Positions 1 through 55,976 of a stretch of DNA of 64,000 nucleotides are shown piece by piece; position 1 is the first letter of the stretch; each line of letters starts with the position of its first letter. The DNA is from Candidatus Coprenecus stercoravium (GTDB lineage Bacteria; Bacteroidota; Bacteroidia; Bacteroidales; UBA932). The position numbers and the translations under genes are program-made. Under the pieces are notes generated by a model, which had not been told where the DNA came from, did no database searches, and was given only the letters and a program-made list of their open reading frames with translations. The stretch is taken from the NCBI GenBank assembly GCA_019116865.1, contig DXAW01000028.1:1-64000 (forward strand). The letters run 5' to 3'.

Positions 1-522
1 GAAAGAGAAGAAGCCCAGCGGCTCATAGCCGGCACCGGTAAGCGTATCCTGTATGATAAGGTTCGGAGGTGTACCGATAAGGGTCATCATTCCGCCCATG
101 CTGCTGGCAAAAGCGAGAGGCATCAGAAGACGGCCGGAGCTGACTCCTGCATTGGCAGCCAGACTCACCACTATCGGCAACATAAGGGCCACCGTACCCG
201 TATTGCTGACAAAGGCTCCTATAGCCGAGGTCACCAGCATCACCAGCAGGAAAAGTCTCAGCTCGCTTTTCCCCGCCAGCTTAAGTATCCTGGCGCTTAT
301 CATCTTGGCCAGCCCTGTCTGGAATATGGCCCCGCCCACAATAAACAGACCGGCCATCATAATCACCACCGAGTTGGAAAAGCCGGACAGAGCTTCGGCC
401 GGTGTCAGGACATGAAATATCAGCAGTGCTATGAGAGCGCACAGAGCCACTATGTCCGAGCGGACTTTGCCCCATACGAAAAATAATACGGAAAGACCGA
501 GAATAATAAGAGTAACCAGCAT
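1..522 (-). CDS. SLC13/DASS-family (Na+/citrate/sulfate-type) permease, N-terminal part, runs off the window edge
   Basis: Reverse-strand reading from ATG at 522: MLVTLIILGLSVLFFVWGKVRSDIVALCALIALLIFHVLTPAEALSGFSNSVVIMMAGLFIVGGAIFQTGLA...ASSMGGMMTLIGTPPNLIIQ. It has the TLIGTPPN motif typical of this family. It is absent from the ORF track because it has no stop inside the window. Confidence 0.85.
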   Translation of the reverse strand, partial: MLVTLIILGLSVLFFVWGKVRSDIVALCALIALLIFHVLTPAEALSGFSNSVVIMMAGLFIVGGAIFQTGLAKMISARILKLAGKSELRLFLLVMLVTSAIGAFVSNTGTVALMLPIVVSLAANAGVSSGRLLMPLAFASSMGGMMTLIGTPPNLIIQDTLTGAGYEPLGFFSF

Positions 523-33628: not shown

Positions 33629-34393
33629 ATGAACGGGAAGCCCAAATATGCCGGCGCCATACTTACCGCCGCAGTGCACTGCCTCCTGCTGTTGTTGCTT
33701 GTCTCCGCAGACATAAGCAGCGCACCGGCCCCGCAGCGCACTGAAGGCATGCTTATAGAATTCCCCGAAGAGGAGCCGGAACCTGTAAAAAGCGAGCCGG
33801 TCCCTGTAAGGACTGCCGTAGGCATAGAGCCACGTGCCGCCGAAGCATCTCCGAAAGAGGAAGCAAGGCTCGTCCAGCGTTCCGAATCACCGGCAGAGGC
33901 CATTGCAGAAAATATCAATTCAGAAGCGACGGTAGCTGATGACGGGGACGTGGAGATTCCTGAGCCTCCGAGAGAGAAGCCTGTCAACCGCAGAGCCCTG
34001 TTCCCGGGCAGCGGAAGCAGCAAAGATACAACTGCCGTACACACAGCGGAAAAGGCCTCTTTCAAGCTGCACGCCGGACACCCTCAAGGCAATACCGGGG
34101 AGGGTAATCCGGACGGGAAACCGACGGCGCGGCTGGAAGGCCGTACAGTAATGGGGAATCTGCCTCTGCCTGAATACAGTGTGGAAAAATCCGGAACAGT
34201 CGTAGTCCGCATCCTGGTGGATCAGTACGGCAATGTCACAAGCGCCACCCCCGGAATCAAAGGGACCACAGTTCAGGATGCCGTACTATGGGAAGCCGCC
34301 AAGGAAGCGGCTCTTAAGGCCAAGTTCAACCTGAGCGCAGATGCACCGGCGGTTCAGGAAGGCAGCATCTCGTATGTGTTCACCTTACGGTAA
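33629..34393 (+). CDS. tonB: TonB-family energy transducer
   Basis: N-terminal TM, P/E-rich linker (FPEEEPEPVKSEPVPV), C-terminal SGTVVVRILVDQYGNVTSATPGIKGTT...AKFNLSADAPAVQEGSISYVFTLR. Confidence 0.9.
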   Translation: MNGKPKYAGAILTAAVHCLLLLLLVSADISSAPAPQRTEGMLIEFPEEEPEPVKSEPVPVRTAVGIEPRAAEASPKEEARLVQRSESPAEAIAENINSEATVADDGDVEIPEPPREKPVNRRALFPGSGSSKDTTAVHTAEKASFKLHAGHPQGNTGEGNPDGKPTARLEGRTVMGNLPLPEYSVEKSGTVVVRILVDQYGNVTSATPGIKGTTVQDAVLWEAAKEAALKAKFNLSADAPAVQEGSISYVFTLR

Positions 34394-34411
34394 CACATAC
34401 GAGATGCTGCT
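34361..34411. terminator. Long hairpin (19-bp perfect stem, extendable inward) overlapping the tonB stop codon
   Basis: gcagcatctcgtatgtgtt (34362-34380) and its reverse complement aacacatacgagatgctgc (34392-34410); inner ACC/GGT pairing with a ttac loop. Confidence 0.7.
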
Positions 34412-34521
34412 GCGCAGCTTTATCCACCCTCTCCCAAACCCTCTCCAAGGAGAGGGCTCAGTCGCTTCGCTCCGGGCTGTGTTCACCTTACGGTAACACA
34501 TACGAGATGCCGCTGCGCAGC
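34375..34521. repeat. 44-bp direct repeat (34375-34418 and 34478-34521, 43/44 identical) flanking a 59-bp palindromic insert
   Basis: tgtgttcaccttacggtaacacatacgagatg(c)(t/c)gctgcgcagc present twice with a 103-bp period; insert 34419-34477 contains ccctctcc-aa-ggagaggg (34439-34456). Confidence 0.9.
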
Positions 34522-34525
34522 CGGG

Positions 34526-35023
34526 TCAGACGGTAGTGCGCGCCAGCGCCTCGTAGAGCGGTTCGCGCTCGTGATAGAGATGTTCGATGACCTGACGCAG
34601 AGAAGCGTCACCACGGTTTTCAAGAAGTGTTCGTCCGCCGGTATCCTTCGAAAGACGCTCGAACAATGTATCCACATCGGCCTTGACATACACACAATAG
34701 GTAAAACGGGAAATAAGGTCCCGGCAGCCGGGAGTGGTGACTATACCTCCGCCCAAAGACAGCACCAGGGTACAGTGCGTCATGTCTTCCAGGGTCTCGG
34801 GATGCTGCGAGACATGCTCTTCCAGAATGCCCTCCAGGCATTCTTCCTCGATGCGGCGGAAACCGGATTCTCCGTCGGAGGCGAAAATCTCAGATATAGT
34901 CCTGCCCTCCCGTTCTTCTATGTATGCGTCGGTATCAATCAGCGGCGCCCCTAATTTGGCGGAAAGTTCCCGGCCCATAGTCGTCTTGCCGGCCGCCATA
35001 AATCCTATAAGAGAAATAATCAT
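34526..35023 (-). CDS. aroK: Shikimate kinase
   Basis: MIISLIGFMAAGKTTMGRELSAKLGAPLIDTDAYIEEREGRTISEIFASDGESGFRRIEEECL and LSLGGGIV. Confidence 0.95.
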   Translation of the reverse strand: MIISLIGFMAAGKTTMGRELSAKLGAPLIDTDAYIEEREGRTISEIFASDGESGFRRIEEECLEGILEEHVSQHPETLEDMTHCTLVLSLGGGIVTTPGCRDLISRFTYCVYVKADVDTLFERLSKDTGGRTLLENRGDASLRQVIEHLYHEREPLYEALARTTV

Positions 35024-53886: not shown

Positions 53887-53969
53887 GGGGAGATACCAAA
53901 GTGGCCAACTGGGGCAGACTGTAAATCTGCTGGCGCACGCCTTCGGAGGTTCGAATCCTTCTCTCCCCA
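53887..53969 (+). tRNA. tRNA-Tyr (anticodon GTA)
   Basis: Acceptor ggggaga/tctcccc; anticodon arm gcaga-ctgtaaa-tctgc; long variable arm (class II). Confidence 0.95.
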
Positions 53970-54018
53970 CACATATACGAAGAGGCATCCGCAGAAGATG
54001 CCCTGAATGAACGAGAGG

Positions 54019-54137
54019 TTTTTCGTTTTGAAGGGGGAGATTCAAGGAACGTGAGGAGAGAGCACCGGAGTTTACTTGTGTAAATGAGGATGCGAGCGAC
54101 AAGCGGTGACGCAGAAGATGCCCTTCAAAACGAAAAA
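54019..54137. repeat. Structured spacer element, copy A: 119 bp bounded by a perfect 17-bp inverted repeat
   Basis: tttttcgttttgaaggg (54019-54035) / cccttcaaaacgaaaaa (54121-54137); core gattcaaggaacgtgaggagagagcaccggagtttacttgtgtaaatgaggatgcgagcgac...gacgcagaagatgcc shared with copy B. Confidence 0.85.
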
Positions 54138-54138
54138 G

Positions 54139-54211
54139 GCGGAAGTAGCTCAGTTGGTAGAGCATCAGCCTTCCAAGCTGAGGGTCGCGGGTTCGAACCT
54201 CGTCTTCCGCT
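54139..54211 (+). tRNA. tRNA-Gly (anticodon TCC)
   Basis: Acceptor gcggaag/cttccgc; anticodon arm tcagc-cttccaa-gctga; T-arm gcgggttcgaacctcgt. Confidence 0.95.
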
Positions 54212-54217
54212 CTTAAA

Positions 54218-55622: not shown

Positions 55623-55671
55623 TTTTTTAGGGCTTAGGGCCGGCAGATTCAAGGAGCGCGAGGAGCGAGCA
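55623..55671. repeat. Structured spacer element, copy C (5' half only)
   Basis: ttttttagggcttagggccggcagattcaaggagcgcgaggagcgagcacc; same order and spacing as the 5' half of copy B, then diverges (aaaggaactgacg...). Confidence 0.75.
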
Positions 55672-55698
55672 CCAAAGGAACTGACGTACCTTAGACCT

Positions 55699-55824
55699 CT
55701 TTTAGGGTTATGGGGCGGCAGTTTCAAGGAGTGCGACGAATGAGCACCGGAGCTTACTTCTGTAAGTGAGGATGCGAATGAGGAGCAGCGACGCCGAAAA
55801 TGCCGTCCTAGAACCCTAAAAAAG
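55699..55824. repeat. Structured spacer element, copy B: about 126 bp bounded by an imperfect inverted repeat
   Basis: cttttagggttatggggcggca (55699-55720) pairs with tgccgtcctagaaccctaaaaaag (55801-55824); core tttcaaggagtgcgacgaatgagcaccggagcttacttctgtaagtgaggatgcgaatgaggagcagcgacgccgaaaatgcc. Confidence 0.8.
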
Positions 55825-55893
55825 GGACATAGTTCAAGGGTAGAATAGCGGTCTCCAAAACCGTTGATGGGCGTTCGAATCGCTCTGTCCCTG
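55823..55893 (+). tRNA. tRNA-Trp (anticodon CCA)
   Basis: Acceptor agggaca/tgtccct; anticodon loop ctccaaa in gcggt-ctccaaa-accgt; T-arm gggcgttcgaatcgctc. Confidence 0.92.
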
Positions 55894-55976
55894 CAAGATA
55901 CCGGATTGTTACGGATCCGGCATTTTAACGACGGCTCGAGGCAAGCTTCCGGCTGACAGCCGACAAAACATTAAAA

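Follow-up and report, generated by a model that had tools for sequence, protein, structure and literature searches.

The tRNA and tuf region of Candidatus Coprenecus stercoravium carries a small structured element in two of its spacers. The draft genome has a completeness of 81.6% and a contamination of 5.8%, and its tRNA/tuf locus is syntenic in related genomes. Within the window, by which we mean the whole 64-kb stretch of DNA that was analysed, one complete element (copy A) lies between tRNA-Tyr and tRNA-Gly and another (copy B) between tuf and tRNA-Trp, and of a third element (copy C) the left half is present. As the preliminary description had stated, copy A is bounded by a perfect inverted repeat, with arms of 17 nt each that are 100% complementary; it ends 1 nt before tRNA-Gly (54137 and 54139, respectively), and the interior motifs are present as described. 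Two perfect inverted repeats of at least 17 bp with a loop of at most 150 were found in the 64-kb window, copy A being one of them, and 20 Markov surrogates contained no inverted repeat of at least 15 bp. Folding of copy A gave -42.4 kcal/mol in comparison to -27.0 +/- 3.0 for shuffled sequences (z -5.2), and two covariance models, R1 and R2, matched positions 54031-54128 with 55.5 and 64.2 bits. The element, which is smaller than 200 bp and has terminal inverted repeats, contains no conserved reading frame.

Table 1. Positions of the elements, their parts and the neighbouring tRNA genes in the window.
Feature	Position	Strand	Basis or remark
tRNA-Tyr, upstream neighbour	53887..53970	+	
Remnant of a second, tandem element 5' of copy A, GGCATC-CGCAGAA-GATGCC	53984..54004	+	
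Copy A, complete element, tRNA-Tyr/tRNA-Gly spacer	54019..54137	+	inverted-repeat check, folding, covariance models
Copy A left outer arm TTTTTCGTTTTGAAGGG	54019..54035	+	arm comparison
Copy A motif 1 left side CAAGG	54043..54047	+	conserved across phyla, outside search pattern
Copy A motif 2 left side CCGGAG	54065..54070	+	
Copy A apical hairpin TTTAC-TTGT-GTAAA	54071..54084	+	folding
Copy A motif 2 right side TGAGGA	54085..54090	+	
Copy A motif 1 right side ACGCAG	54109..54114	+	
Copy A right outer arm CCCTTCAAAACGAAAAA	54121..54137	+	arm comparison
tRNA-Gly, downstream neighbour of copy A	54139..54212	+	
Copy C, third element, left half, from a partial tandem duplication	about 55623..55673	+	BLAST
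Copy B, complete element, tuf/tRNA-Trp spacer	55700..55822	+	BLAST, folding, covariance models
tRNA-Trp, downstream neighbour of copy B	55823..55894	+	

The interior of copy B is closely similar to that of copy A, whereas its arms are wholly different, yet mutually complementary. Copy B abuts tRNA-Trp (55823) with no gap, folds at -56.8 (z -6.0) and was matched at 55713-55810 by R1 with 68.4 bits and by R2 with 76.5 bits; in the window, R2 matched copies A and B only. Copy C shares 88% identity with copy A (BLAST, E 1e-4), and sequence comparison revealed that its duplication is missing in two relatives (G013/G017). The short hairpin 5' of copy A had been noted as a loose 14-bp copy of the element end; the repeat exists, but it is an exact 15-bp copy, at 53990-54004. 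Less-decayed, longer homologs of the hairpin are kept in two relatives (L158 and L160), and it is what a deletion left of a tandem element upstream of copy A. BLAST of the source genome returned five similarities, local or dispersed, and the covariance model identified five complete copies, namely A, B and those at C146:972 (L003), C68:39685 (L004) and C99:7351 (L272). Two of the five lie next to tRNAs and three away from them; L004, based on a reading of its flanks, is antisense between rpsN and rpsH. L272 (152-250) adjoins a cobalamin riboswitch (325-401, minus strand).

From the outside in, the element consists of variable arms, a CAAGG/ACGCAG loop (motif 1), a variable stem of ~17 bp, a CCGGAG/TGAGGA loop (motif 2) and a YNTAC-N4-GTANR cap, and the length of the core is constant across phyla. 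The core pattern implemented for searching, CACCGGAGNNTACNNNNGTANNTGAGGA, has 20 fixed bases, so that ~0.5 chance exact matches are expected in 264 Gb; it fixes motif 2 by construction and leaves motif 1, the spacings and the pairing outside the cap free. Although outside the search pattern, motif 1 (CAAGG ... ACGCAG), the 17-19-nt spacings and the pairing outside the cap are conserved. When each arm was folded with its own or with a swapped partner in 42 non-redundant copies, the middle arms gave -13.2 vs -5.4 kcal/mol and the outer arms -9.0 vs -4.9 kcal/mol. In the gap-free alignment A2 of 15 sequences, 85.7% of cells were paired, compared with 60% after shuffling, and the pairing collapsed on a one-column slide; double changes affected 27 of the 34 pairs, a number reached in none of 500 shuffles. 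Alignment A3 (69 copies) had double changes at 33 of 34 pairs, but it was aligned by covariance model and is hence biased toward structure. From the MAFFT alignment A1, in which the arms are out of register, RNAalifold recovered the apical stem alone. These comparisons indicate that the core is kept by compensatory change across phyla. The mismatches are one-sided: the middle stem contained 69 A.G/G.A against 4 C.T/T.C mismatches, the outer arms had 43 G.U against 16 A.C, and the plus strand was the better folder in 38 of 39 copies. Such asymmetry indicates that selection sees one strand in single-stranded form, either RNA or ssDNA.

Given the conservation of the core, its distribution was followed beyond the source genome. 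A strict pattern (at most one mismatch) found only the source genome among 397 genomes of the phylum, and a wider pattern together with covariance models was needed to reveal the spread. Among the GTDB species genomes, the core pattern had matches in at least 114 stretches from many phyla, including Bacteroidales, Bacillus/Cytobacillus and relatives, Clostridia, Listeria, Kurthia and Pseudomonas, as well as Pantoea, Enterobacter and relatives, Burkholderiales, Myxococcales and Chryseobacterium. Among Bacteroidales, 33 of 118 genomes were positive, several of them with at least 34 copies; at a stricter cut-off, 16 of 99 genomes across the phylum were positive, mostly owing to one further family (f43) outside the class. 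The earlier remark on similar sequences in other Bacteroidetes was thus sound for the Bacteroidales, but too narrow, as several phyla carry them. Near-identical copies occur at ten enterobacterial loci, of which one was examined (Siccibacter, L047) and lies between alr and dnaB, and Pantoea (L046) has two tandem copies in the dnaG-rpoD spacer. Over 51 non-redundant copies, in 12 of 32 cases the right end of the element, 40-75 nt from the core, coincided with the stop codon of a gene on the opposite strand, compared with 3 of 25 for the left end; this excess may arise from stop codons within the terminal repeat.

ERIC (enterobacterial repetitive intergenic consensus, also named IRU or RU-1) has been used as a typing tool since about 1990, and it has been described as a gammaproteobacterial MITE and a curiosity of unknown origin. 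It was reported from Enterobacteriaceae and Vibrionaceae, to which reviews restrict its range (PMC10969869), has its own 7-bp TIR with TA ends (PMC2229807), and is reported to be co-transcribed as an orientation-dependent RNA hairpin, with destabilisation via an RNase E site (PMC2229807, PMC10969869). Like the family analyzed here, ERIC is an imperfect palindrome of about 120-127 bp that is intergenic, non-coding and mobile, and it shares the loop motifs at equal spacing (AAGG+18 ... 18+ACGCA). The ERIC query was confirmed with 88% over 127 bp in 4001 of 5426 E. coli genomes. Model R1, trained on 15 non-ERIC copies, matched E. coli ERIC in register with 21-22 bits and ERIC of Salmonella and Rahnella with 25-29 bits, while R2, trained on 69 non-ERIC copies, gave 36.7 bits for Rahnella ERIC (E 7e-8) and 27.8-28.8 bits for E. 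coli ERIC (E 1-2e-5), the E-values of the covariance models being rough. Motif 2 reads CC-G-GAG/TGA-GG in the window copies and CCAG-GAG/TGA-CTGG in ERIC. In contrast to ERIC, the window copies have different arms and a host in Bacteroidota: the terminal repeats of ERIC (TATACCC-type, TA ends) are missing from A, B and L003, whose arms read TTTTTCG..., TTTTAGGG... and CTTCGGGATTT..., respectively.

Two further results set limits on the naming of the elements. Both models missed four of the eight ERIC copies tested, and the reciprocal search with the Rfam model V_AS5 found no match in the copies of the source genome and, among the controls, matched E. coli only. For these reasons, we name the window elements ERIC-type rather than ERIC. 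V_AS5 matched E. coli ERIC (L146/L147, 1500-1623) over all 129 positions (E 1e-8), which makes RF02818 in effect an ERIC model; this entry, listed as 'Vibrio RNA AS5, antisense', apparently describes the ERIC repeat by a different name. It is conceivable, given the different terminal repeats, the failed reciprocal search and the missed copies, that ERIC and the present family are convergent hairpins of non-homologous origin. We consider this unlikely, since the unpaired residues of both internal loops are held in common at equal spacing, the matches are in exact register with E-values down to 7e-8, and one copy of the source genome, L272, carries an ERIC-style motif 2 (GGAG-TTTAC...GTAAA-TGACTGAG). 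L272 is a possible intermediate toward ERIC, and from the sequence comparison the classic E. coli ERIC appears to form one branch within a family that extends over several phyla.

Other known systems resemble the element in part. The preliminary description could name no family for it, and at gathering score no Rfam family matched the element in the window and related loci, including RF02818, which matched neither in the window nor elsewhere in the source genome; nevertheless, ERIC, which V_AS5 does match, is related. Bacterial MITEs (NEMIS/Correia, RUP, YPAL/RU-2) are likewise small and non-coding, with inverted repeats and target duplications, and are transcribed into stable hairpins (PMC2229807). 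Unlike usual MITEs, the present elements have one core in common across several families, whose termini are unrelated and whose duplications measure 4, 6 or 8 bp. Bacillaceae-1 RNA (RF01690) is similarly located in rRNA spacers of Bacillaceae, but it is a separate stretch with a separate model and has zero overlap with the element; at L060 (5639-5706, minus strand) it adjoins an element copy in a Kurthia 23S-5S spacer. REPs are palindromic, intergenic and repeated like the element, but they measure 20-40 bp with GTAG/CGTC tags (PMC3733652), whereas the core spans ~100 nt and this tag is absent in A and B. A second, unrelated repeated hairpin that is REP-like, ATCTCGTATGTGTT-CACCTTACGGT-AACACATACGAGAT, lies at 34362-34410 of the window and recurs in part 120 nt further downstream (about 34482-34530); the element model does not match it. 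No paper was found that gives the core strings in a relevant context, in a search mostly without subscription papers, and an earlier description is possible.

High-copy genomes of Bacteroidales provided the evidence for mobility. Each of three genomes had one terminal repeat in many copies, about 235 in G528, about 85 in G548 and about 50 in G543, and copies at separate loci were identical between the ends, with nothing in common outside. Flanking direct repeats were of 8 bp in G528 (6 of 8 copies), 6 bp in G548 (4 of 4) and about 4 bp in G543 (at least 4 bp in 18 of 20), compared with 5-28% in swapped controls (17% for G548). This pattern indicates that the related Bacteroidales families transpose with target-site duplications. 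The option of a MITE-like or REP-like repeat, raised in the preliminary description, was therefore right in kind, given the dispersed copies, the target duplications of related families and the presence or absence among close relatives. At copies A and B themselves, comparison with empty sites revealed no clear target duplication. The element ends differ among the high-copy genomes (GGGGACTTCTAAAAAT, GGC(G/A)TTTTTCATAA and GTGTCAGCAAGAAAA), and thus different transposases appear to move elements that share one core. The unrelated terminal repeats with 4-, 6- or 8-bp duplications indicate that the core is an insert common to several MITE families. Searches of G543, G528 and G548 with TIR patterns found, among the matches listed, neither a transposase nor an autonomous element whose ends match. 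In G543, a core-less form of 60 bp was present at three loci (G543:C151:15337, C194:10182 and C218:1311, i.e., L267-L269) with apparent target duplications, so that movement probably does not require the core.

The core-less form also bears on whether the fold acts as ssDNA, in a transposition or replication intermediate such as the hairpins of IS200/IS605, REP/RAYT or attC, instead of as RNA. The mismatch asymmetry fits ssDNA as well as RNA, and the core is central in palindromic mobile units; however, the duplications (4, 6 and 8 bp) are indicative of DDE-type transposases that make staggered cuts, not of Y1 or integron chemistry, and the 60-bp element has reached three sites with its core missing. 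Based on these observations, an ssDNA role seems rather improbable to us.

In contrast to the tRNA spacers of the window, most copies elsewhere lie between protein genes. The suggestion that the element favours tRNA spacers does not apply generally. Two of the five copies in the source genome are at tRNAs, but a general targeting of tRNAs was rejected because protein-gene spacers contain most copies. The exception to the protein-gene spacers is the Bacillaceae, with copies (L036, L032, L045 and other loci) directly 5' of 16S, 23S and 5S rRNA; a single Cytobacillus or Sporosarcina genome has copies at several of its own rRNA operons. Within protein operons, 13 copies were sense and 18 antisense. 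This near equality argues against an RNA role that is needed at most sites; such a role is probably not essential for every individual copy, and the element itself may be what benefits from it.

The two tRNA sites were compared within the genus, which is Candidatus Coprenecus-like (L044 is Ca. C. avistercoris). The Tyr-Gly spacer is empty and of 6-9 nt in G013, G016, G010, G014, G009 and G005, contains a full element within 168-194 nt in G000, G018, G007, G012, G003 and G002, and has an internally deleted element that lost the apical core in G017, G015 and G006. Outgroups are empty at this site, and full and empty forms are adjacent on the tuf tree, several forks of which are weakly supported. 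Site B is filled in G000, G003, G014, G013 and G017 and empty in the remaining members of the genus, and orthologous B copies have paired differences in the arms and cap. The element at site A is dispensable. Since the empty spacers are only a few nt long, any tolerated insertion must abut a tRNA, and the adjacency needs no targeting; the Bacillaceae copies before rRNA are compatible either with the same short-spacer argument or with a genuine tolerance that depends on processing.

A role in tRNA processing or stability, which had been named as one option for copy A, is not supported, since there are close relatives in which the copy is absent or internally deleted and the tRNA clusters are intact. 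In its fuller form, this explanation holds that A and B are cis-acting hairpins of the tRNA precursor that insulate the 5' end of the following tRNA or help to cut it, and are kept for that purpose. It draws on their position, 0-1 nt before a tRNA and on the tRNA strand, on the Bacillaceae copies directly before 16S, 23S and 5S rRNA, and on the compensatory changes in the site-B arms between relatives. We give it little credence, as close relatives, among them G013 and G014, have nothing at site A, an internal deletion has removed the apical core in three relatives, most of the genus is empty at site B, the shortness of the empty spacers accounts for the abutment, and three of the five copies in the source genome are away from tRNAs, one of them antisense between ribosomal protein genes. 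Least probable of all, in our view, is a gene for a small RNA that, once mature, would act in trans on targets of its own, for although the fold is strong, conserved and asymmetric between strands, genomes carry many near-identical copies with target duplications, arms differ fully between copies, and beyond the motifs no loop sequence is conserved for target pairing.

We therefore consider it likely that copies A and B belong to a family of small non-autonomous MITEs that crosses phyla and is built around a conserved single-strand fold. Under this explanation, A and B would have entered the compact spacers of the tRNA/tuf operon as MITE insertions, would be transcribed in sense with the tRNAs and would fold into a long hairpin. 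RNase P, and probably also RNase III acting in the arms, would remove them during tRNA maturation, and it is possible that they are tolerated in tRNA spacers because of this removal. As has been reported for Yersinia ERIC, the core may act as RNA in one orientation, e.g., as a ligand of an RNase or RNA-binding protein of the host, and this RNA action, rather than transposition, may keep the core loops conserved. More tentatively, and with appreciable doubt, we propose that an RNA-acting core with two fixed loops, present in at least four phyla inside MITEs with unrelated ends and with ERIC as its enterobacterial branch, is itself under selection, for instance because it recruits an RNase or RNA-binding protein that is widely conserved among hosts, and has been passed as a module between transposon families.

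What appears new here, at the level of sequence, is an ERIC-type core common to several phyla and to several MITE termini. If ERIC is a branch of a cross-phylum family with a common fold, it becomes possible to search for its origin and for its partner protein, and the constant loops and spacing would define a testable RNA (or ssDNA) ligand. The high-copy Bacteroidales genomes would then supply recent insertions with target duplications. In addition, the rRNA sites of Bacillaceae and the tRNA sites of Coprenecus are natural presence/absence pairs for the effect of a folded insert on the maturation of stable RNAs.
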